Positions 95 to 55,425 of a DNA stretch of 64,000 nt are shown one piece after another (the stretch's first letter is position 1; each line of letters begins with the position of its first letter). Under the pieces are notes generated by a model. The model ran no database searches. It saw only the letters and a list, made by a program, of their open reading frames with translations, and was not told the origin of the DNA. The stretch covers positions 310,001 through 374,000 of the forward strand of contig NZ_JAIEZQ010000003.1 of the NCBI RefSeq assembly GCF_019679455.1. Reading direction: 5' to 3'. The translations under genes were made by a program, and so were the position numbers. The stretch comes from Nocardioides jiangsuensis. GTDB taxonomy: Bacteria; Actinomycetota; Actinomycetes; Propionibacteriales; Nocardioidaceae.

Positions 95-679
95 ATGGCT
101 CGGGAGGCCGTCCGGGAGCAGCGCAGGCCAGGGGATCTGGCCCGCCTGGCCGAGATCCGGTGGCGGCACGTCCGCGACGTACGGCGTCCGGACCGGCCCG
201 AGGAGAAGGTCGACCACGTGTCGATCGGGCCGAGCGGCATCCATGTGATCGGTTACTGCACCCACGAGCCGGTCGAGGCCGGCGACGCCGCGCTCCGTGA
301 CCGCCGCGAGGCCGCGCGGGCCGTCGCCGCGCTGCTGCCCGAGCGCTACCGGTCCCGGACGCTGCCGGTGCTGTGCTTCCGCGAGGAGGTGCCGGTGTCG
401 ACGACCCTCGACGAGGTGCTGGTGACCTCCACGATGACCTATGACCACGTGCGCCGCTCGTCGCCGGTCGTGCTCTCCACCTCCGAGGTCAACGAGGTCG
501 CCGGGCTGCTGGAGGCCCGCCTCGAGCCGTACCCGGTCGTCCCGGTCCAGGCGCGCCGCAGGCCTCTCTGGCGCCGGCCCGCCCTGGTCGCGGCGGCGCT
601 GCTCACCGTCGCCGGCGGGGCCGGAGGGCTCGCCGGGCTGGCCGCCGTGGACGCGGTCGCGGTGGCCTGGCCCTGGTAG
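95..679 (+). CDS. NERD-like protein with C-terminal membrane segment
   Basis: 194 residues from the ATG at 95, which follows an AGGGGAGG ribosome site; an in-frame ATG at 11 has no such site. The stretch VDHVSIGPSGIHVIGY (about residues 35-50) resembles the core strand of NERD (nuclease-related) domains. Family members normally continue with an active-site Lys; here CTHEP follows, so nuclease activity is doubtful. An Arg-rich stretch followed by an Ala/Gly/Leu/Val-rich segment near residues 160-185 looks like a C-terminal membrane anchor. A hairpin follows the stop, so it is probably transcribed apart from the stress operon downstream. The NERD resemblance rests on one motif; the function is unknown. 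Confidence 0.6.
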   Translation: MAREAVREQRRPGDLARLAEIRWRHVRDVRRPDRPEEKVDHVSIGPSGIHVIGYCTHEPVEAGDAALRDRREAARAVAALLPERYRSRTLPVLCFREEVPVSTTLDEVLVTSTMTYDHVRRSSPVVLSTSEVNEVAGLLEARLEPYPVVPVQARRRPLWRRPALVAAALLTVAGGAGGLAGLAAVDAVAVAWPW

Positions 680-688
680 GACCCCGTG

Positions 689-707
689 CGCCCCGTTGCC
701 CGGGGCG
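689..707 (+). terminator. Hairpin after the NERD-like gene
   Basis: CGCCCCG and CGGGGCG form a perfect 7-bp stem around the loop TTGCC, starting 10 bases past the stop codon. There is no strong T-run, which is common for high-GC actinobacterial terminators. It would insulate the stress operon from the gene upstream. Confidence 0.5.
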
Positions 708-773
708 GTGACCCCGGCGTCGTACCCCGGCCACGTGCCCGGCACGGGCGGCCTTCTCTCTCGCGCGTTCCGC

Positions 774-805
774 TTGGACGGCGGAACCCCGCGTGCGACT
801 ATGCT
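774..805 (+). promoter_or_regulatory. Possible promoter of the stressosome operon
   Basis: TTGGAC at 774-779 and TATGCT at 800-805 resemble -35 and -10 hexamers, but the 20-base spacing is longer than the usual 17-18. The position, about 45 bases before the rsbR-like start, is suitable. Weak evidence by sequence alone. Confidence 0.3.
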
Positions 806-848
806 TCGGGCCCTCCGGGGGCACATCGTCGACAACGAGGAGAGGCCA

Positions 849-1709
849 GTGGCTGACGCAGCCGTGGACAAGGGCTGGGCGACGCTGCTCAGGCGCAACG
901 GTGACGAGGTCGTCGCCCGCTGGAGCGAGGCCGCGGCCCAGTCGCTCGAGGGCCGCATGACGCGTGCCGAGCTCGAGCGCGACGTCCGTGAGATGTACGA
1001 CGCGCTGGTCGCCGGCGTCGGTGAGGGCGACCGCCACACCCTGGCCGACGCCTCCTTCGCGGAGCTGCGCGCGCTGCTCGCCGACGTCAGCCACACCCGG
1101 GCCCGGCAGGGCTTCTCCTCGACCGAGACGGCGGTCGGCGTCTTCGCGCTGAAGGAGGCGATGCTCGGCGTGCTCGAGGAGCACGGCGACCTCGCCGCCT
1201 ACCGCAGCTTCGCGGACTTCTCCCGGCTGATCGACGAGCTCGGCCTCTACATGCTCGAGGTCTACGCGCAGGCCCGCGAGGCGGTCATCGGCGAGCAGGC
1301 CGACGCGCTGCTCGAGCTGTCCACGCCCGTGGTCAAGCTGTGGGACGGGATCATCTCGCTGCCGCTGGTCGGCACCCTCGACTCCGCACGCACCCAGGTG
1401 GTGATGGAGAAGCTGCTCCAGGCGCTGGTCGACACCGGCTCCGAGCACGCGATCATCGACATCACCGGTGTGCCCGCGGTCGACACCCAGGTCGCCCAGC
1501 ACCTGCTCAAGACGGTGCAGGCCGCCCGGCTGCTCGGCGCCGAGTGCATCATCTCCGGCATCCGCCCGCAGATCGCGCAGACCGTGGTCGCCCTCGGCAT
1601 CGAGTTCGGTGACATCTCCACGAAGGCGTCGCTGTCCGAGGCGCTGTTGGCCGCGCTGCGCAAGCAGGGCACCGACGTCGTACGCCGCACCGGACGCCGG
1701 GACCGCTGA
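849..1709 (+). CDS. rsbR: RsbR-type stressosome co-antagonist
   Basis: 286 residues from a GTG preceded by GAGGAGAGG. The N-terminal ~140 residues are a helical, globin-like RsbR sensor region; a STAS domain occupies about 160-275. The motif ELSTPVVKLWDGI places Thr159 at the position of the phosphorylated linker Thr of Bacillus RsbR. ITGVPAVDTQVA places Thr213 at the STAS phosphosite that RsbT uses. In the known system RsbR and RsbS build the stressosome and hold RsbT until stress. It overlaps the next gene (TGATG), so translation is coupled. The family call is firm; what the sensor region detects is unknown. Confidence 0.92.
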   Translation: MADAAVDKGWATLLRRNGDEVVARWSEAAAQSLEGRMTRAELERDVREMYDALVAGVGEGDRHTLADASFAELRALLADVSHTRARQGFSSTETAVGVFALKEAMLGVLEEHGDLAAYRSFADFSRLIDELGLYMLEVYAQAREAVIGEQADALLELSTPVVKLWDGIISLPLVGTLDSARTQVVMEKLLQALVDTGSEHAIIDITGVPAVDTQVAQHLLKTVQAARLLGAECIISGIRPQIAQTVVALGIEFGDISTKASLSEALLAALRKQGTDVVRRTGRRDR

Positions 1710-2131
1710 TGGACCGCGTCCCCATCCTGAAGATCGGCGACATCCTGCTCGTCTCGATCCAGGTGGACCTGCAGGACCACATCGCGCTGGCCCTGCAGGA
1801 GGACCTCGGCGACAAGATCGTCGCCACCAGCGCCCGGGGTGTCCTCATCGACATCTCGGCGCTGGAGATCGTCGACAGCTTCATCGGCCGCATGCTCTCC
1901 ACGATCGCCTCGATCTCGCGCGTCCTCGACGCGGAGACGGTGGTCGTGGGCATGCGCCCCGCCGTCGCGATCACCCTCGTGGAGCTCGGGCTCTCCCTCG
2001 GCGGTGTCAGGACCGCCCTCGACGTCGACCGCGGGATGGCGATGCTGGCCGCCTCCACCGAGGTGCGCGACGACGAGCTCGAACCGGACGAGCACGGAGC
2101 CATCGACACCGTGTCCGCCCCGGGAGACTGA
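1709..2131 (+). CDS. rsbS: RsbS-type stressosome scaffold (single STAS domain)
   Basis: 140 residues, a lone STAS domain with a short acidic tail. The segment LIDISALEIVDSFIG carries Ser57, matching the serine of Bacillus RsbS that RsbT phosphorylates; this phosphorylation releases RsbT. The start ATG overlaps the rsbR stop, and its own stop overlaps the rsbT start in the same TGATG pattern, giving a tightly coupled R-S-T unit with matched stoichiometry. Order and domain content equal the classical rsbRST module. Confidence 0.92.
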   Translation: MDRVPILKIGDILLVSIQVDLQDHIALALQEDLGDKIVATSARGVLIDISALEIVDSFIGRMLSTIASISRVLDAETVVVGMRPAVAITLVELGLSLGGVRTALDVDRGMAMLAASTEVRDDELEPDEHGAIDTVSAPGD

Positions 2132-2550
2132 TGCCCACGCCGGTCGTGGTGGAGTCCGGGGAGATCCACGAGATCCACACCGACGCCGACGTCGTCCGGG
2201 TCCGGCAGGCGGCGCGGACCCTCGCGCTCTCCGCCAAGCTGTCCCTGGTGGACCAGACCAAGCTGGTCACCGCGGCCAGCGAGCTGGCCCGCAACACCCT
2301 CGTCTACGGCGGGGGCGGCCGGGCCACCGTCGAGGTCGTCAGGCTCGGCCCGCGCCGCGGCGTGCGTGCGGTGTTCGTCGACGAGGGACCGGGCATTCCG
2401 GACCTCGACCTCGCGCTCACCGACGGCTGGACCAGCGGCAGCGGCATGGGCCTGGGCCTGTCCGGTGCCCGCCGGCTCGTCGACGAGTTCGAGGTCAGCA
2501 CCGATGTCGGCACCGGGACCACGGTCAGTGTGGTGAAGTGGACGCGATGA
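2131..2550 (+). CDS. rsbT: RsbT-type switch kinase
   Basis: 139 residues, a complete GHKL/HATPase fold. The N box is SELARNTL (Glu51, Asn55), G1 is DEGPGI (84-89) and G2 is GMGLGL (105-110), so ATP and Mg binding residues are intact. In the known system RsbT phosphorylates RsbR and RsbS, leaves the stressosome and activates a PP2C phosphatase such as RsbU. Two downstream genes here (2547-3578 and 5041-6648) carry PP2C domains and are candidate targets. It overlaps the following gene by four bases. Confidence 0.92.
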   Translation: MPTPVVVESGEIHEIHTDADVVRVRQAARTLALSAKLSLVDQTKLVTAASELARNTLVYGGGGRATVEVVRLGPRRGVRAVFVDEGPGIPDLDLALTDGWTSGSGMGLGLSGARRLVDEFEVSTDVGTGTTVSVVKWTR

Positions 2551-3578
2551 CTCATGCCGCGGACGACTCGTACGGCCTCGCCGTCGTCGAGGACGTCGGC
2601 TGGCTGCGCGTGGACGACCCCAGCTCGCCGGGCACGGTGCGCCGCCGCCTGGTCGAGCTCGCCCGCCAGGTGGGCTTCTCCGAGACCCGGACCGGTGAGG
2701 TCGGGATCGTCGCGACGGAGCTCGCCACGAACCTCGTCAAGCACGCTCGCGACGGCGCCGTGCTCCTGCGGCTGCTGCGCTCCGACGGGGTCGGCGGTGT
2801 CGAGATCGTGACCGTCGACAGCGGGCCCGGGATGCGCGACCCGCGGGCGGTGTTCGCCGACGGCCGGTCCACGGCCGGCACCCTCGGCATCGGGCTCGGC
2901 GCCGTGGCCCGGCTGTCGAGCCGGTACGACGTCCACTCCGCCCCCGGCCACGGCACCGTGGTCACCGCCACCCTGTGGCCGGCCGGGGTCGAGGTCTCGC
3001 CCGAGCCTGCCGCGGGGCTGACCCGGGTGATGAGCGGCGAGGAGATCTGCGGCGACGCCTACGCCGTGCGCAGCGTCCACGACGGCCTGCTACTGATGGT
3101 CGCCGACGGGCTGGGCCACGGGCCGCTCGCCGCCCGCGCCTCGTCGGAGGCGGTCCGGGTGTTCCGCGAGTCCACCCACCACAGCCCCGCCGAGCTGCTC
3201 CGCGAGCTGCACCGCGCCCTCCAGCCGACCCGCGGCGCCGCGATCGCGATCGGCCACCTCCAGCCGCGGCGCGCGCTGCTCACCTACGCCGGGATCGGCA
3301 ACATCGCCGGCCGTGTGGTCGACAACGGCGCCACCAAGGGGCTGGTCAGCCACCCCGGCATCGTCGGCCACCACGCGCGCGTGCCGCGGTCGCTGGTGTA
3401 CGACGTCACCCCGACCTCCTACGTCGTCATGCACAGCGATGGTGTCCGCGACCGGTGGGACACCGCCGAGCTGCCGGGGCTGCTGAACCACACGCCGCTC
3501 GTCGTCGCGACCTCGATCCTCCGTGACGCGGGGGTCCGTCCCGACGACGCCAGCGTCCTGGTCGCGCAGGTGGCCTGA
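2547..3578 (+). CDS. Fusion of RsbT/RsbW-like HATPase and RsbX/SpoIIE-like PP2C phosphatase
   Basis: 343 residues from an ATG overlapping the rsbT stop. Residues ~20-145 are a HATPase domain with N box ELATNLVKHA, G1 DSGPGM and G2 GTLGIGLG, all intact. Residues ~155-343 are a compact PP2C/SpoIIE-type domain with SGEEICGD and DGLGHGPLA. The short PP2C half resembles RsbX, which resets the stressosome by dephosphorylating RsbR and RsbS. One chain thus joins a kinase-like and a phosphatase domain acting in opposite directions. Which half is active on which partner cannot be told from sequence. Confidence 0.85.
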   Translation: MTHAADDSYGLAVVEDVGWLRVDDPSSPGTVRRRLVELARQVGFSETRTGEVGIVATELATNLVKHARDGAVLLRLLRSDGVGGVEIVTVDSGPGMRDPRAVFADGRSTAGTLGIGLGAVARLSSRYDVHSAPGHGTVVTATLWPAGVEVSPEPAAGLTRVMSGEEICGDAYAVRSVHDGLLLMVADGLGHGPLAARASSEAVRVFRESTHHSPAELLRELHRALQPTRGAAIAIGHLQPRRALLTYAGIGNIAGRVVDNGATKGLVSHPGIVGHHARVPRSLVYDVTPTSYVVMHSDGVRDRWDTAELPGLLNHTPLVVATSILRDAGVRPDDASVLVAQVA

Positions 3579-3580
3579 GC

Positions 3581-5044
3581 ATGGGCGTCCAGGAGGTGTA
3601 CGCGATCGAGCTCGGCTCCGAGGTCGACGTCTTCGCCGCGCGCCAGGGCGGGCGAGAGGTCGCCGCCGCGGTCGGCATGGACGGCCAGGACCTGGTCCGG
3701 GTCGCCACCGCGCTCAGCGAGGTCAGCCGGGACGTGGTCGCGTCCGGCGGTGGCCGGGTGGTGTTCTCGCTGCCCAGCCCGGGGCTGCTCCGGGTCGTGG
3801 TGACGTGCAACGCCGTGGACAGGCTCCCGCCCAGCGAGGACTCGGCGGGCCTCGCCGCTGCCGGCCGGCTCGTCGACGGGGTCACCGAGTCCACCGACGC
3901 CGCGGGTCACGCCGTGGTGACGCTGGAGAAGCGGATCACCTCACCGGTCCTCCTCGACGACGTCCGCGGCTCGGACCTGCGCCGCAGGCTCGCCGCCTCG
4001 GTCCATCGGAGCCCGCTCGACGAGCTGCGGACGCAGAACGCCGAGCTGCTCGCGGCGCTCGACGAGGCGCAGGCCCGCAAGCAGGAGCTGCTCCGGGTCA
4101 ACGCGGAGCTCGAGGAGACCAACCACGGGGTGCTCGCGCTCTACAACGAGCTGTCGACCGAGCTCGAGGACACCAACCGCGGTGTCGTGGCGCTCTACGC
4201 CGAGATCGACCAGAAGAACGCGCTGCTGCGCGAGGCCAGCGAGAGCAAGACCCGCTTCCTGCGCAACATCAGCCACGAGCTGCGCACCCCGGTGAACAGC
4301 GTGCTGGGCCTGGCCCGGCTGCTGCTCGACCGCAACGGCGTCGACCCGCTCACCGACGAGCAGCGACACCAGATCGAGTTCATCAACTCCAGCGGCGAGG
4401 ACCTGCTCCGGCTCGTCAACGAGCTGCTCGACCTGGCCAAGGCGGAGTCCGGGCGGATCGAGCCGGTCATCGACGACGTGGACCTCGCGACGCTCTTCCG
4501 CGAGCTGGAGGGGACCACGCGTCCGTTGATCACGCGGGACGACGTACGTCTCGTGGTCGACGAGCCCACCGAGGTGACCCGGCTGCGCACCGACGGCACC
4601 CTGCTCCGGCACGTGCTGCGCAACCTGCTCAGCAACGCGGTCAAGTTCACCGAGCACGGCGCGATCACGCTGGCGGCCACCCCGGTCGAGGACGGGCGGG
4701 TGGTGCGGGTCTCGGTCCGCGACGAGGGCATCGGCATCTCGCCCGAGGACCAGGCCAAGGTGTTCGAGGAGTTCTACCAGGTGCGCGGCCGGCTGCAGAC
4801 CAGCGCGAAGGGGACCGGTCTCGGGCTCGCGTTCGCGCGGCGGGTCGCGGTCATCCTTGGCGGCGACCTCCGGGTGCAGAGCACCCCGGGGAAGGGCAGC
4901 ACGTTCCTGGTGGAGCTGCCGGTCGACGGCCGGCCACCCTCGGCGGCCGACGAGACCGGCTCCGCGACCACCACCGAGCCGGGACCGGGACCGGCGCACC
5001 ACCATGACCCGTCCCGGGGAGGACAGGAGAACGACGGCCGATGA
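3581..5044 (+). CDS. Histidine kinase with degenerate RsbT-like N-terminal domain
   Basis: 487 residues, three bases after the previous stop. Residues ~8-118 align by eye with RsbT: VATALSEVSRDVV sits where RsbT has the N box, with Asp51 in place of Asn, and the glycine boxes G1 and G2 are lost. A coiled coil (~145-225) holds two copies of an ELEETNHGVLALY-like unit. The kinase core follows: H box ISHELRTP with His232, N box LLSNAVKF, G1 DEGIGI, G2 GTGLGL. No membrane segment, so cytoplasmic. The dead RsbT domain could dock on the RsbR/RsbS stressosome and link it to phosphorelay; that is inference. The 3' end overlaps the next gene by four bases. Confidence 0.88.
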   Translation: MGVQEVYAIELGSEVDVFAARQGGREVAAAVGMDGQDLVRVATALSEVSRDVVASGGGRVVFSLPSPGLLRVVVTCNAVDRLPPSEDSAGLAAAGRLVDGVTESTDAAGHAVVTLEKRITSPVLLDDVRGSDLRRRLAASVHRSPLDELRTQNAELLAALDEAQARKQELLRVNAELEETNHGVLALYNELSTELEDTNRGVVALYAEIDQKNALLREASESKTRFLRNISHELRTPVNSVLGLARLLLDRNGVDPLTDEQRHQIEFINSSGEDLLRLVNELLDLAKAESGRIEPVIDDVDLATLFRELEGTTRPLITRDDVRLVVDEPTEVTRLRTDGTLLRHVLRNLLSNAVKFTEHGAITLAATPVEDGRVVRVSVRDEGIGISPEDQAKVFEEFYQVRGRLQTSAKGTGLGLAFARRVAVILGGDLRVQSTPGKGSTFLVELPVDGRPPSAADETGSATTTEPGPGPAHHHDPSRGGQENDGR

Positions 5045-6648
5045 ACGACCCCTCCACGGTGTCGATCCTGGTCTGTGACGACACCGACGCCAAGCGCTAC
5101 GTGATCTCGAGCTGGCTGCGCCGCGCGGGATACCAGGTGGTCGAGGCGGCCACCGGCAACGAGGCGCTGGACCTGGTCGCGGGTGGCAGCCTGGACCTCG
5201 CGGTGCTCGACGTGCACCTGCCCGACATGAACGGCTTCGAGGTGTGCCGGGCGATCAAGCAGGGCCCGCGTACGGCGGCGATGCCGGTGCTGCACATCTC
5301 GGCCATCGCGGTCGACCCCGAGCAGCGCAGCGCCGGGCTCGACTACGGTGCCGACGCCTACCTGATCGACCCGATCGAGCCGCTGGAGCTGCTCTCCACG
5401 GTGCGGGCGCTGCTCCGGTCTTCCGGCGCCCGTCGCAGCGCCGAGCGGCTCGCCACCCGGCTCAGCCGGCTCAGCACCGCCAACCTGCGGATCAACGTGG
5501 CGGTGAACCTGGCCCGGCTGGTCGGCGCCGCCGCCGAGGGAACGGCCCGGGTCCTGGAGTCGGAGTCGGTGGCGATGCTCGTGGGCGACGACGGCCGCAG
5601 CCTCGCCGCGCGGACCAGCGCCGACGGCGTCACCACCACCTGGAGCATCCCCGCCGACGTCGTGGCGACCCTGGTCACCGAGGCGAAGGGCGCCACGCTC
5701 GTCGAGGGAAGCCACGAGCCCTGGACGACGCTGCTGCCCGAGGCCGGCCAGGGGACCTGGTCGGTGATGCCGGTGCGCGAGGGCCACGAGGTCGTGGGCC
5801 TCGTCGGGGCGCCGGGCACTCCTGAGTCCGAGGCGGACGACCGGCTGCTCCTGCGCCAGCTGGCGCAGTCGGTGTCGGTCGCGCACTCCAACCTGCGCGT
5901 CTTCGCCGAGGAGCACCGGATCGCGCTCACCCTGCAGCGCAGCCTGCTGCCGGCGACCCTGCCGCCGCTGCCCGGCCTCGACGTGGCCGCGCGCTACAAG
6001 GCGTCGGGGGAGCAGGCGGAGATCGGCGGCGACTTCTTCGACGCGTTCCAGACCGACGACGGCAGCAGCGTCGTGGTGATCGGCGACGTCCAGGGGCACT
6101 CACTCGCCGCTGCGGTGCTGATGGCGGAGCTGCGCTACTCGCTGCGGGCCTATGCGCACGACGGCTACTCGCCGCCGGAGGTGATGCAGCGGATCAACGC
6201 GGTCCTGCTGCGCAGCCACCCGGAGATGACCGCGACGGTCTGCATGCTCGTCTTCCCGCCGGACCGGCGCAGCGTCACCGTGATGAACGCCGGCCATCTG
6301 CCGCCGCTGGTCGTCAAGGACGGGGTCGCGGAGTACCTCGAGCCGGGCGGCCCGCTGCTCGGCGTGGACGTCCCGCCGGGTGAGCCGGAGACGATCGCAC
6401 TGGTGCCCGGCGACCGGATCGTGCTGATGACCGACGGCCTGGTCGAGCGCCGGGACGAGTCGATCAGTACGGCGCTGGAGCGGCTCTCACGTGATCTGCT
6501 GGCCGGGGTCGGCACCGCGGAGGAGCTGTGCGACGAGCTCATGGCCCGATGGGGCGCCGGCGAGGACGACGTCGCCCTCGTGCTGCTCGACGTGGTGGAG
6601 CAGCACGAGGACGCCGACCGTGCAGACGACCTGACCTCGTCGGTCTAG
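5041..6648 (+). CDS. Response regulator-GAF-PP2C phosphatase (RsbU-like)
   Basis: 535 residues. A receiver domain (1-125) has the acidic pocket DD (13-14) and phospho-acceptor Asp57. The usual Lys before the conserved Pro is replaced by Asp110 (LIDPIEP). A GAF-like region (~150-290) and a SpoIIE/PP2C domain (~310-535) follow, with GGDFFD, IGDVQGH, NAGHLPPL and TDGLVE; the metal-binding Asp residues are present. It likely dephosphorylates an anti-anti-sigma factor, driven by the kinase encoded just upstream. It ends the stress operon; the next gene is on the other strand. Confidence 0.9.
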   Translation: MNDPSTVSILVCDDTDAKRYVISSWLRRAGYQVVEAATGNEALDLVAGGSLDLAVLDVHLPDMNGFEVCRAIKQGPRTAAMPVLHISAIAVDPEQRSAGLDYGADAYLIDPIEPLELLSTVRALLRSSGARRSAERLATRLSRLSTANLRINVAVNLARLVGAAAEGTARVLESESVAMLVGDDGRSLAARTSADGVTTTWSIPADVVATLVTEAKGATLVEGSHEPWTTLLPEAGQGTWSVMPVREGHEVVGLVGAPGTPESEADDRLLLRQLAQSVSVAHSNLRVFAEEHRIALTLQRSLLPATLPPLPGLDVAARYKASGEQAEIGGDFFDAFQTDDGSSVVVIGDVQGHSLAAAVLMAELRYSLRAYAHDGYSPPEVMQRINAVLLRSHPEMTATVCMLVFPPDRRSVTVMNAGHLPPLVVKDGVAEYLEPGGPLLGVDVPPGEPETIALVPGDRIVLMTDGLVERRDESISTALERLSRDLLAGVGTAEELCDELMARWGAGEDDVALVLLDVVEQHEDADRADDLTSSV

Positions 6649-6652
6649 CGGC

Positions 6653-6856
6653 TCAGGCGCAGCACCGGGCCGGGGTGGCCGCGGTGCGCAGCGCCCGCCG
6701 CTCCGCGAAGCGGGACCGCAGCCGCTGCGTCGTCTCCGCGATCCACGACGGCCGGCAGCAGCGGGCCAGCGCGGCGAGGCGGGAGCGGGTGGCCGTGGCA
6801 CGCAGCTCGCGGGCGCGGTCGGCGGCCAGGGCGGTGGCGATGTCGGGGTGGGTCAT
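6653..6856 (-). CDS. Small Cys- and Arg-rich protein downstream of arsI
   Basis: 67 residues from an ATG with GAGGAG ten bases upstream. It starts 12 bases after the arsI stop, so the two are almost surely co-transcribed. Two CC pairs are visible (ARCCRP near residue 33 and the C-terminal RCCA), in an otherwise Arg/Ala-rich basic chain. Paired cysteines next to an arsenic gene suggest As(III) or metal binding, but this is inference. No known family recognised. Its 3' end meets the PP2C gene tail to tail with four bases between stops. Confidence 0.6.
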   Translation of the reverse strand: MTHPDIATALAADRARELRATATRSRLAALARCCRPSWIAETTQRLRSRFAERRALRTAATPARCCA

Positions 6857-6868
6857 GGTGTCTTCTCC

Positions 6869-7378
6869 TCAGCAGCAGGCCGGGGCACGCCCGGCGGTGG
6901 GTTGGTGGGTGGTCTCGCCGGCGGTGGCGCCGACGGTGACGTCGGCGGTCTCCTCGGCGCCGGGGGCGCAGCAGGTCGCGCCGCCGTCGGCCGGCTCGGC
7001 GTCGAAGGTCGGGCTGTCCGCGAGGACCGTGTAGACCTCCCAGAGCTCCCCGTCGGGTGCGCCCTGCACCCAGAACTTGTCCTGCTTGGCGTAGCAGCAG
7101 GTGGTGCTGCGCTCGTCGACCGAGGCGAGGCCGCGCTCCGCGAGCCGGGTCTGCTCGGCGTCGACGGTGTCCACGTCGGCGACCTCGACCCCGAGGTGGT
7201 TGAGGCTGCCGCCCTGGCCGGGGTTCTCCAGGAGGACGAGCTTGAGCGGTGGCTCGGCGATGGCGAAGTTCGCGTAGCCGGGGCGGCGCTTGGCCGGCTC
7301 GGTGCCGAAGAGGGCGCTGTAGAACGCGACGGCCGAGTCGACGTCGTCGACGTTGAGCGCGAGCTGGAGACGGGACAT
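6869..7378 (-). CDS. arsI: ArsI-like C-As lyase (VOC/glyoxalase family)
   Basis: 169 residues. The N-terminal ~125 form one vicinal-oxygen-chelate domain beginning SRLQLALNVDDVDSAVAFY. Metal-ligand positions are in NHLGVEV and in GELWEVYTV, and STTCCYAKQDKFWV is the paired-Cys arsenic-binding motif of ArsI, the Fe(II) dioxygenase that splits trivalent methyl- and aryl-arsenicals. CadI-type proteins are close relatives. The low-complexity tail has more Cys (TCCAP and a C-terminal ACC). It is divergent from the arsR gene, with a likely shared operator at 7391-7417. Confidence 0.85.
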   Translation of the reverse strand: MSRLQLALNVDDVDSAVAFYSALFGTEPAKRRPGYANFAIAEPPLKLVLLENPGQGGSLNHLGVEVADVDTVDAEQTRLAERGLASVDERSTTCCYAKQDKFWVQGAPDGELWEVYTVLADSPTFDAEPADGGATCCAPGAEETADVTVGATAGETTHQPTAGRAPACC

Positions 7379-7390
7379 GGTGGGCTCCTC

Positions 7391-7417
7391 CTAGATATCG
7401 ACGAGTATCGATGTATG
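7391..7417. promoter_or_regulatory. Likely ArsR operator in the arsI/arsR divergent promoter
   Basis: The otherwise GC-rich intergenic region turns AT-rich here: TATCGA occurs twice, 11 bases apart, inside an imperfect inverted arrangement (ATATCGA...TATCGATGTAT). ArsR/SmtB repressors bind such AT-rich sites. Position between the divergent arsI and arsR genes supports autoregulation and arsenite-induced release. The exact site is not proven. Confidence 0.45.
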
Positions 7418-7465
7418 GCTGAGACAGAGGTTGCCAGTCAGTTCGACGGCTGTCAATATGTTGGC

Positions 7466-7825
7466 GTGACCAATTCTCTGATCGAGCTCACGCCGGTGGA
7501 GACCGTCGCGTGCTGCCCCCCGCTGGCCACCGAGCCGTTGTCGACGGAGCAGGCGACCCAGGTCGCGCCCCTGCTCAAGGCGCTCGCCGACCCGGTGCGG
7601 CTGCGGCTGCTCTCGCTGGTCGCCTCGCACGAGGGGCAGGAGGCGTGCGTCTGCGACCTCACCGACTCTTTCGACCTCTCGCAGCCGACGATCAGCCATC
7701 ACCTGAAGGTGATGCACGAGGTCGGGCTGCTCGACCGCAGCAAGCGCGGTGTGTGGGTCTACTACAAGGTCCGCGGCGAGGCGCTCAGCGACCTGGCGAA
7801 GCTCATCGGCGGCGCCGCCGGCTGA
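7466..7825 (+). CDS. arsR: ArsR-family repressor (arsI-linked)
   Basis: 119 residues from a GTG at 7466; an in-frame ATG at 7415 lies within the probable operator and is less likely. A CC pair near the N-terminus (VACCPPL) and ACVCDLTDSF before the recognition helix are the paired-thiol positions of actinobacterial As(III)-sensing ArsR. The winged helix includes SQPTISHHLKVM. No clear ribosome site precedes the GTG, suggesting a leaderless message. It should repress arsI and itself. It belongs to a different subtype from the ArsR at 13444-13752. Confidence 0.85.
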   Translation: MTNSLIELTPVETVACCPPLATEPLSTEQATQVAPLLKALADPVRLRLLSLVASHEGQEACVCDLTDSFDLSQPTISHHLKVMHEVGLLDRSKRGVWVYYKVRGEALSDLAKLIGGAAG

Positions 7826-52605: not shown

Positions 52606-54609
52606 ATGAACCGGGATCCGGTCACGATCGTGGTCGTGGACGACGCCTCCGAGGTCCGCCTGCTGGTGAAGACCCGCCTCCGCATGTCCGGGTTGCTGAG
52701 GGTCGTCGGTGAGGGAGCAGACGGAGCGCAGGCGGTAGCCCTGGCGCGCGAGCACCAGCCGGCCTTGATGCTGCTGGACGTCTCGATGCCCGGCATGGAT
52801 GGGCTGGCGGCGTTGCCCCGGGTGCTGGAGGTCTCGCCCTCGACACGCGTCGTGCTGTACAGCGGCTTCGAGGAGCAAGGTCTGGCCGGTGAGGCGCAGC
52901 GCCTCGGCGCTGCGGCGTTCATCGAGAAGTCCTCACCCATCGACTCCCTCAGCGACCGCCTGCTGGACGTGCTGGCCCCGGACGAGCGGCCCGAACCGGC
53001 GGGCGGACAAGGGGCGCCCCTGGCTTCCGGCGGGCCACATGGTGTGCCCGCGGTCGACCAGCAGGTACTGGACGACCACGTCGAGCGGTTCCGGGAGGTC
53101 TTCGAGGAGGCCGCGATCGGCATGGCCACCCTGACCCTGACCGGCCGGCTGGTGCGAGGCAACCGGGCCTTGGCGGCGCTGCTGCGGCGCCCCGTCACGG
53201 AGCTGACCGGCCTGTTCTACGGACAGTTCACCGACGGACGGGGCGAGCAGGTCACCGCGGCCCTCGAGGAGATTCGCAGGCGCCCCGTGGACATCGTCCA
53301 GCTGGAGCATGGGCTGGCCGGCGCCGCCGATGACCGACGAGTCCGCGCGATACTGGCGCCCGTCCGGGACTCCTTGGGCAGGGTCCTGTACCTGTTCCTG
53401 CAGGTCCAAGATGTCACCGCCGAACGAGCGGCAGTCGAGCAGCTGCGCAAGAGCGAGGAGCGGTTCCGGCTGCTGGTCGAGGCGGTGGAGGACTACGCGA
53501 TCTTCATGCTGGACCCGACCGGTCATGTCGTCAGCTGGAACAGCGGCGCGCAACGCAGCAAGGGTTACACCGACGAGGAGATCATCGGGCAGCACTTCCG
53601 GGTGTTCTACCCGCCCGAGGCCCAGGCTCGGAGGCACCCCGAACACGAGCTGGAGCTGGCCCTGCGCGACGGCCACTACGAGGAGGAAGGCTGGCGCGTC
53701 CGCAAGGACGGGAGCCGCTTCTGGGCCAACGTCCTCATCACGGCGGTGTTCAACGAGGTCGGCGAGCACATCGGGTTCGCCAAGGTCACCCGGGACAACA
53801 GCGAGCGTCGCCGGCTCGAACAGGAACGGGAGCACGCGGTACAGGCACTGGCGTCGACCAACGCCGAGCTGGAGTCCGCTAACGCCCGGCTCGAGCAGGT
53901 CGCCCAGGACCAGGCACAGTTCCTGGCCGTGACCGCGCACGAGCTGCGGACTCCCGTCGGGGTTCTCGGCGGCTCCGCGGAGACCCTGACGCGGCACGGG
54001 GGCGATCTCACCGACGAGGAACGCGCCGATCTCCTGGAGGCGATGGAAACCAGCAGCCGTCGGCTCCGGAGACTGTTGGCTGACTTGCTGACTGCATCCC
54101 GGCTGCAGGCGAGCTCCCTCGAGATTCACCCGGCACCGATCTCGGTCAGCGACATCGTCGCGGAGGCGGTGACCACCGTGTCTCGTACGACGTCCGATGC
54201 GGAGATCCTCGTCGAGACGCCCGCGGACCTGGTGGTGTACGGCGACCGGGACCGGCTCGGCCAGGCCGTGGACAACCTGCTCGCCAACGCCCTTCGTCAT
54301 GGCACGCCACCGGTCCGGATCACCGCTCGCCGCGGTTCCGGTCGGGTGGAGATCCGGGTGAGCGACCACGGCTCCGGCGTGACCGCCGAGGCACAACCCC
54401 GGCTGTTCAAGCGTTTCGCCACCGGACGCAGCAGCGGTGGCAGCGGTCTAGGCCTCTTCATCGTGCGCGAGCTCGCCCGCGTTCACGGCGGCGAGGCCTT
54501 CTACGAGCAGGGTTCCCCGCAGCAACCGAGCGGTGCGTTCGTGATCAGCCTTCCCAGCGGAGACGGGCCCTCCGATCCGCATCCGGGCGACCCGCCAGGA
54601 ACAGGCTGA
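52606..54609 (+). CDS. Hybrid REC-PAS-PAS histidine kinase
   Basis: 667 residues. Receiver (1-125) with DD at 12-13, phospho-acceptor Asp58 and a Lys in FIEKSSP. Two PAS regions (~145-270, ~285-405; the second begins RFRLLVEAVEDYAIFMLD). A coiled coil leads into the H box TAHELRTP with His445; N box NLLANALRHG, G1 DHGSGV and G2 GSGLGLFIV follow. It is cytoplasmic. The receiver precedes the kinase, as in sensors that take input from another kinase. It starts 7 bases after the phosphatase gene. Confidence 0.88.
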   Translation: MNRDPVTIVVVDDASEVRLLVKTRLRMSGLLRVVGEGADGAQAVALAREHQPALMLLDVSMPGMDGLAALPRVLEVSPSTRVVLYSGFEEQGLAGEAQRLGAAAFIEKSSPIDSLSDRLLDVLAPDERPEPAGGQGAPLASGGPHGVPAVDQQVLDDHVERFREVFEEAAIGMATLTLTGRLVRGNRALAALLRRPVTELTGLFYGQFTDGRGEQVTAALEEIRRRPVDIVQLEHGLAGAADDRRVRAILAPVRDSLGRVLYLFLQVQDVTAERAAVEQLRKSEERFRLLVEAVEDYAIFMLDPTGHVVSWNSGAQRSKGYTDEEIIGQHFRVFYPPEAQARRHPEHELELALRDGHYEEEGWRVRKDGSRFWANVLITAVFNEVGEHIGFAKVTRDNSERRRLEQEREHAVQALASTNAELESANARLEQVAQDQAQFLAVTAHELRTPVGVLGGSAETLTRHGGDLTDEERADLLEAMETSSRRLRRLLADLLTASRLQASSLEIHPAPISVSDIVAEAVTTVSRTTSDAEILVETPADLVVYGDRDRLGQAVDNLLANALRHGTPPVRITARRGSGRVEIRVSDHGSGVTAEAQPRLFKRFATGRSSGGSGLGLFIVRELARVHGGEAFYEQGSPQQPSGAFVISLPSGDGPSDPHPGDPPGTG

Positions 54610-54684: not shown

Positions 54685-55425
54685 ATGGGGATCCGTGTCC
54701 TGCTGGTCGACGACGTCGTCGACGTGCGCCGCCTGGTACGCACGGCACTGCGCGTTCGCGGCGGGTTCGAGGTGCTGGGCGAGGCCGGCGACGGCAGTGA
54801 GGCCGTTCGACTCGCCGAGTCCCTGCAACCGGACCTGGTCGTCCTGGACCTCGGCCTTCCCGACATCGCGGGGCGCGACGTGCTCACCCATATCCGTGAC
54901 GTGTCCCCGGTGTCGAAGGTGGTCGTGTTCTCGGGGGCCGACACCCCTGACCGGTCCTGGATCACGGAGCGCGTCGATGGGTTCGTCCTCAAGGACAGCG
55001 ATCTGGAGTACTTGGTCGACCTATTGGAGTCGGTGGGGCAGCGGCGCGACAACGAGGCGACGCTCGACCTGCCACGGGCGTCGACGAGCGCCGGCGCTGC
55101 GCGACGCTTCGTCACGCAGATCGTCACGGAGTGGAAGCTGGAGCAGCTTCTCGACGACGCCGTACTGGTCGCGAGTGAGCTGGCCACGAACGCGGTCACC
55201 CACGCCGACTCGTCCTGCCGGATCAGGCTGTCGCTCAGCCCGGCCGCCTTGCGGATCGACGTCATCGACGAGGGCGCCGGGACCCCCGACCCGCGGGCCG
55301 CCGGCTCGACGGACGAGCACGGGCGCGGCCTGCTGCTTGTCGCTGCACTCACCACCGCCTGGGGACTCGAAGTCCTGCCTGGTGACGGCAAGCTGGTGTG
55401 GGCCGAGCTCACGCGACCCACCTGA
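54685..55425 (+). CDS. Fusion of receiver and HATPase (anti-sigma-kinase-like)
   Basis: 246 residues. Receiver (1-118) with DD 9-10, Asp55 and Lys103 (FVLKDSD). The C-terminal ~110 are an RsbW-type HATPase: N box ELATNAVTH (165-173), G1 DEGAGT (195-200), G2 HGRGLLLV (212-219). A phosphorelay would therefore act straight on a serine-kinase/anti-sigma domain. It follows the hybrid kinase gene by 75 bases, most likely in one operon. Confidence 0.87.
   Translation: MGIRVLLVDDVVDVRRLVRTALRVRGGFEVLGEAGDGSEAVRLAESLQPDLVVLDLGLPDIAGRDVLTHIRDVSPVSKVVVFSGADTPDRSWITERVDGFVLKDSDLEYLVDLLESVGQRRDNEATLDLPRASTSAGAARRFVTQIVTEWKLEQLLDDAVLVASELATNAVTHADSSCRIRLSLSPAALRIDVIDEGAGTPDPRAAGSTDEHGRGLLLVAALTTAWGLEVLPGDGKLVWAELTRPT

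Follow-up and report, generated by a model that had tools for sequence, protein, structure and literature searches.

The window (the whole stretch of 64,000 nucleotides of Nocardioides jiangsuensis DNA that was analysed) carries near its start six genes, from an RsbR-like gene to one for a REC-PP2C protein, which its sequence places all in one direction:

849 to 1709, + strand: RsbR-like co-antagonist, RsbRD_N plus STAS (Pfam RsbRD_N 2.7e-22, STAS 3.1e-15)
1709 to 2131, + strand: RsbS-like STAS protein (Pfam STAS 1.2e-8; sequence)
2131 to 2550, + strand: RsbT with intact N, G1 and G2 boxes (Pfam HATPase_c 3e-12, HATPase_c_2 1.2e-8; sequence)
2547 to 3578, + strand: RsbX-like protein, an intact GHKL domain plus a SpoIIE phosphatase (Pfam HATPase_c_2 4.2e-15, SpoIIE 4.6e-12)
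3581 to 5044, + strand: sensor histidine kinase of 487 aa with an N-terminal pseudo-RsbT (Pfam HisKA 2.1e-19, HATPase_c 1.9e-27)
5041 to 6648, + strand: response regulator of REC, weak GAF and SpoIIE PP2C (Pfam Response_reg 7.5e-20, SpoIIE 4.4e-45)

The start codon of the RsbR-like gene is uncertain (ATG 801 or GTG 849), and in the RsbS-like protein we take Ser57, in the motif VDSFI, to be the expected phosphorylation site by equivalence. Overlaps of 1–4 bases are found at the RsbR/RsbS, RsbS/RsbT, RsbT/RsbX and kinase/REC-PP2C junctions and the RsbX/kinase gap is two bases, so that the kinase gene is directly preceded by rsbR-rsbS-rsbT-rsbX, the arrangement that defines an RSTX module. An Rfam scan of 600–7400 gave no match. 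Directly downstream of the operon lie genes for what are presumably a CadI/ArsI-like protein (6869–7378, − strand) and an ArsR-like regulator (about 7410–7825, + strand). RsbW-like genes are present in the genome, and at the two loci examined no link to a sigma factor was established. Elsewhere in the window (54685–55425, + strand) a 246 aa protein joins a receiver domain to an RsbW-like HATPase_c_2 domain and is preceded by a REC-PAS-PAS histidine kinase (52606–54609), REC and PAS being assigned by eye.

The initial annotation placed an RsbT-like domain at 3581–4000 of the kinase gene; the RsbT-like stretch is indeed there, although these limits run slightly beyond the domain itself (about 3590–3934). 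The features of the kinase, in which ‘dead’ refers to fused RsbT domains that have lost the ATP-binding motifs, are:

3590 to 3934, + strand: pseudo-RsbT domain, residues 4–118 (AlphaFold2, VIA-align, profile matches to RsbT)
3641 to 3643, + strand: Arg21, the equivalent of RsbT Arg19; Arg in 85/85 dead domains
3719 to 3721, + strand: Glu47, the retained N-box Glu; E or D in 84/85 dead domains
3731 to 3733, + strand: Asp51, in place of the RsbT N-box Asn (alignment)
3959 to 4000, + strand: helix 127–140, following the pseudo-RsbT (AlphaFold2)
4013 to 4273, + strand: predicted signalling helix, residues 145 to about 231 (full-length model, pLDDT about 80, monomer)
4106 to 4213, + strand: two tandem 18-residue coil units, ELEETNHGVLALYNELST and ELEDTNRGVVALYAEIDQ (sequence)
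4244 to 4453, + strand: HisKA with phospho-acceptor His232 at 4274–4276 (Pfam; H232 invariant, 12/12)
4592 to 4927, + strand: active-looking catalytic domain (Pfam; conserved residues)

The HisKA histidine and the N, G1 and G2 boxes of the catalytic domain are all present, which identifies the protein as a HisKA-type sensor kinase, and N348/N352, D381, G383, G385, G411, G413 and G415 of the catalytic domain are invariant (12/12). In the full-length model (a monomer; pLDDT 83.6, pTM 0.51) a single helix is predicted from residue 145 to 249, running into HisKA helix 1. The 18-residue coil occurs as two units in 66/85 dead proteins and as one unit in 19/24 intact ones, and differing unit number, hence helix length, may retune signalling.

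That the N-terminus is RsbT-like is agreed on by BLASTP, profile and fold. Residues 1–138 match the operon’s own RsbT (29%, 126 columns) with an E value of 1e-5 that holds for that single comparison. A profile built from 18 relatives found the same RsbT at 2.6e-13 in a search of the phylum, far better than RsbX; in the locus set it scored RsbTs at about 1e-11 to 1e-19, the window’s own RsbT at 2.4e-14 and the RsbX GHKL domain at 2.2e-3. Pfam gave no match on residues 1–134, NCBIfam gave one weak match below the cut-off on the N-terminus (RsbA_anti_sig, 1.3e-3), and PDB sequences, searched with the single sequence and with a profile, returned only unrelated matches and no GHKL protein. The structure prediction and superposition originally suggested as a check came out in favour of a GHKL fold: AlphaFold2 folds residues 1–145 confidently (mean pLDDT 91.6, pTM 0.86), and the solved structures nearest to the model are those of RsbW, UsfX and SpoIIAB (Foldseek E 3e-5). 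By VIA-align the model superposes on RsbW (6m37_C) with Z 16.2 and an rmsd of 1.7 over 108 residues; RsbW, UsfX, SpoIIAB and the RsbW domain of Rv1364c span Z 16.2 to 13.8, followed by SiaB (11.3) and Leptospira LvrC (10.9), with the catalytic domains of histidine kinases at 8.6 or less. A tree of the domains separates RsbT, intact fused and dead fused copies from the RsbX N-terminal domains (100/100) and puts most dead copies in one group (82/99) within RsbT; two long branches float, the finer order is not firm, row L154_T1 is the fused Massilia domain, and L213 is dead although a loose pattern carried it as intact both here and in the earlier kinase tree. Residues 4–118 are thus confirmed as an RsbT-derived GHKL switch-kinase fold from which the ATP site has gone, and the identity of the domain as a pseudo-RsbT is near certain.

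The losses reported from the first inspection (N-box Asn replaced by Asp, G1 and G2 boxes missing) are reproduced in the alignment, where Asp51 stands for the Asn and the glycines are absent; the window domain lacks the N-box Asn, the G1 Asp, the G1 and G2 glycines and the lid. With dead-domain positions counted by B. subtilis RsbT numbering, the N-box Asn (Asn49) and the G1 Asp each occur in 0/85 dead domains, and the position of lid residue Asp92 is a gap in 71/85 of them and Gly in 22/24 intact fused domains. The corresponding 120/120 for stand-alone RsbT rows is circular since these were picked for their N and G1 motifs. Among the dead domains the columns vary most at G1 (mean entropy 2.98 bits) and Asn (2.25) and least in alpha2 (0.81). 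In intact fused domains the same averages are 0.44 for G1, 0 for Asn and 0.44 for alpha2, and both there and in the RsbX domains few columns are better conserved than those of Asn and G1. Besides Arg21 and Glu47, the equivalent of RsbT Arg109 is kept in 83/85 dead domains and that of Arg23 is R or K in 77/85 (lost in 8/85). As RsbX domains also keep the equivalents of Arg19 (83/86) and Glu45 (85/86), these two are not specific to RsbT, and only the second Arg, which RsbX domains mostly lack, is RsbT-like. Arg21 is matched to RsbW Arg23 by equal spacing only, because the RsbT and SpoIIAB alignments missed alpha1; the N-box Glu lies 26 residues after this Arg in RsbW, in RsbT and in the window pseudo-RsbT. 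RsbW Arg23 and Glu49 bind Asp23 and Ser56 of RsbV in the RsbW–RsbV crystal structure (PMC7340262), RsbT Arg19 and Arg23 are implicated in RsbU binding and the lid residue Asp92 has been mapped near the RsbU linker (both PMC12143880).

Relatives were sorted by downstream domain (kinase, PP2C or RsbX), near-identical domains being removed and 86 RsbX rows set aside, which left 115 distinct fused proteins. From their N-terminal motifs these could be divided into three groups. Intact proteins (24/115) are all kinases, 22 from Burkholderiaceae and one each from Sphingomonas and Deinococcus. Mixed proteins (6/115), in which part of the motifs is left, come from Rariglobus and five Burkholderiaceae. 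Dead proteins (85/115) comprise 77 kinases (12 from Burkholderiaceae, one, G680, from the Gammaproteobacteria sample and, by subtraction, 64 from Actinomycetota) and 8 PP2C phosphatases. A length filter excluded one further Paraburkholderia protein (L238; N and G1 present by eye) from these counts. In Massilia sp. Root418 the gene after an R-S-T-X module encodes a kinase with the N-box Asn, G1 and G2 present in its first domain, and in the Burkholderiaceae-level sample 73/195 match this domain at 1e-10, a figure that counts stand-alone RsbT too; the best 30 loci carry a kinase of this type (20 distinct), and in all of them another RsbT lies about 1.4 kb upstream (30/30). Plasmids of Sphingomonas and Deinococcus have the order R-S-T-X-(intact RsbT)-kinase, where the annotation of the kinase is no more than ‘ATP-binding protein’. 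The pseudo-RsbT is found at E ≤1e-20 in 28/324 genomes of the window’s class; in the window’s own family 19/100 genomes match at 1e-5, but clear cases of this kinase are limited to the window and five others. In Streptomycetaceae 57/247 have a match to the dead domain of a Streptomyces protein together with its coil.

A tree of kinase cores (64/107 fused kinases and 12 ordinary ones; root fork weak at 42, deep forks weak) requires at least five changes between intact and degraded. An earlier kinase tree, in which L142 of the ordinary set is the same protein as L113, groups the fused kinases, whether intact or dead, apart from ordinary ones (98) and pairs the kinase core of G680 with an ordinary kinase (99), so that the RsbT–kinase fusion there is probably a separate one. 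The G680 gene (locus L167, 1578–4283, in a genome whose family comprised only 2 genomes) comes after STAS, RsbT-like and SpoIIE genes and encodes a hybrid kinase in which the RsbT domain is degraded. Chance resemblance to RsbT is ruled out by the fold, the profile and the intact relatives, and an RsbX-type rather than RsbT-type GHKL domain by the profile scores and the tree. A recent pseudogene does not fit the open frame and conserved partner face, nor local decay of a single gene the 85 distinct dead copies.

The order RsbR-RsbS-RsbT-RsbX-kinase-REC/PP2C is found in 21/22 loci carrying a fused kinase (in L036 RsbX and REC-PP2C are split across frames). The exception is Rariglobus (Verrucomicrobiota), where the fused kinase is not beside R-S-T and an RsbR/S/T/X cluster lies elsewhere in the genome with an RsbU_N kinase. 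Profile and neighbourhood searches placed no RsbR, RsbS, RsbT or pseudo-RsbT domain near any of 68 ordinary kinase loci, two of which gave a weak local match, within a kinase, to the RsbX query. With one Pfam model (PF08673) RsbU_N was found in 0/11 actinobacterial genomes with the dead domain, the window’s own included, nor was it matched in Massilia or in the window kinase; the same search was positive in the B. subtilis control and in three genomes where an RsbU_N kinase adjoins R-S-T-X. In the R-S-T-X operons at loci L169–L175 the kinase begins with a bundle resembling RsbU_N, and PF08673 was confirmed in three of the genomes concerned. Eight distinct Streptomycetaceae proteins run from a dead RsbT and coil straight into a SpoIIE PP2C, and in Streptomyces microflavus such a gene comes after genes for STAS, STAS, anti-sigma regulatory factor and SpoIIE proteins. 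These fusions lead us to read the dead domain as an input module whose natural end point is the PP2C, with the HK-REC relay as an inserted step.

The domain therefore descends from RsbT, has lost its ATP motifs, occupies a fixed six-gene operon, has intact relatives in the same slot and has decayed repeatedly; fold, profile, phylogeny and those relatives uphold the initial annotation’s pseudo-RsbT fused to a sensor kinase. As to its function, docking on RsbR/RsbS is the best-supported mechanism and is inferred indirectly, from the operon order (21/22 loci), the retained STAS-contact residues, the failure to find RsbU_N and the occurrence of the dead domain on PP2C as well. Counting against it are the equivalents of Arg19 and Glu45 that RsbX domains share, the loss of the Arg23 equivalent in 8/85 dead domains and the position of the Rariglobus kinase away from R-S-T. 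The explanation that we prefer as a whole, and rate at slightly better than even, is that a dead-RsbT input domain docks the kinase at the stressosome and so drives the His-Asp relay and the PP2C. The catalytically dead copy, at the tip of one long helix, would bind the STAS surfaces of RsbS and RsbR with the alpha1 Arg and N-box Glu that it still has, and keep the kinase at the stressosome. Stress and phosphorylation by the real RsbT (with RsbX resetting the system) would alter this docking, the long helix would carry the change to HisKA, and HisKA would phosphorylate the REC of the next gene and switch its PP2C phosphatase. Having lost ATP binding the kinase could not phosphorylate its own dock, and release would therefore depend on the real RsbT and on RsbR/RsbS conformation; in B. 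subtilis stressosome activation has been reported without RsbS phosphorylation (PMC3944199). The broader proposition is that of a bacterial GHKL pseudokinase adaptor: a switch kinase would have been fused to signalling outputs (histidine kinase, PP2C) and then repeatedly made into a pseudokinase, the docked dead copy letting the stressosome act directly on a His-Asp relay or a phosphatase. This seems to us evenly balanced.

Alternatively the pseudo-RsbT could be the receptor of released real RsbT, an RsbT:pseudo-RsbT dimer switching the kinase in place of RsbU_N. This would supply a target for free RsbT, which is left without a known one where RsbU_N was not found (11/11 genomes), and the proposed pairing resembles the RsbW and SpoIIAB dimers; RsbW dimerises via alpha1 and beta1 (PMC7340262), both kept in the model, and RsbU, a helix-linked dimer, binds RsbT (PMC12143880). 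Against this, no report of RsbT homodimerisation was found in the literature examined and the intact fused copies of Burkholderiaceae resemble a second RsbT and not a receptor, and we consider this reading rather unlikely. Less likely still is that the domain simply caps the coil as a dimerisation or scaffold element, the operon being only a regulatory neighbourhood with no link to stressosome state. The continuous helix 145–249 of the model, the strong divergence outside alpha1/alpha2 and the orphan kinase of Rariglobus would suit such a cap, but the constant operon slot in 21/22 loci, the retained partner-face residues and the movement of the same domain onto PP2C would not. That the emptied pocket binds another small ligand and makes the domain an independent sensor is very improbable: Trp often stands where the G1 Asp used to be (38/85 dead domains), but variability is greatest in the former pocket and no conserved new pocket was seen.

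Docking of the pseudo-RsbT at the stressosome would bear on a problem raised by Heinz 2022, who describe eleven downstream architectures of stressosome loci, note that most downstream proteins lack RsbU_N, suggest that RsbT might phosphorylate the kinase, and leave open for Vibrio and others the route from stressosome to RsbU_N-less kinases (PMC9237108). A fused RsbT domain, intact or dead according to lineage, offers a concrete route; the working-looking copies in close relatives suggest how the stressosome could reach ordinary two-component signalling, and the series from intact to dead is natural material on roles of switch kinases besides catalysis. The available parts of PMC9237108 and of the eLife 2025 paper on RsbU_N kinases (PMC12143880) contain no mention that we found of an RsbT-like domain on a kinase. 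The statement that no such protein had been described holds for the open-access full texts searched (the 2005 Pane-Farre RsbRST survey may hold one), but the protein is common and not singular.

Compared with B. subtilis RsbT, the window domain shares the fold, the alpha1 Arg pair, the N-box Glu and an operon with RsbR/RsbS, but it lacks the ATP site, is fused to a histidine kinase and coexists with a real RsbT. The intact RsbT-HK of Burkholderiaceae, Sphingomonas and Deinococcus (labelled by NCBI as ‘ATP-binding protein’ or ‘sensor histidine kinase’) have the same architecture and operon slot as the window kinase but keep the N, G1 and G2 boxes. RsbU_N-coupled kinases by RSTX likewise have the histidine kinase directly after RsbX but carry the RsbT-binding RsbU_N bundle, where the kinases described here carry RsbT itself, intact or dead (PMC9237108; PMC12143880). 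RsbK/RsbY (B. cereus) and RsfS/RsfR (M. smegmatis) also pass from HK to REC-PP2C into a sigma-factor partner switch, but no report of an RsbT-like domain on them was found in the sources examined, and they are not coupled to a stressosome there.
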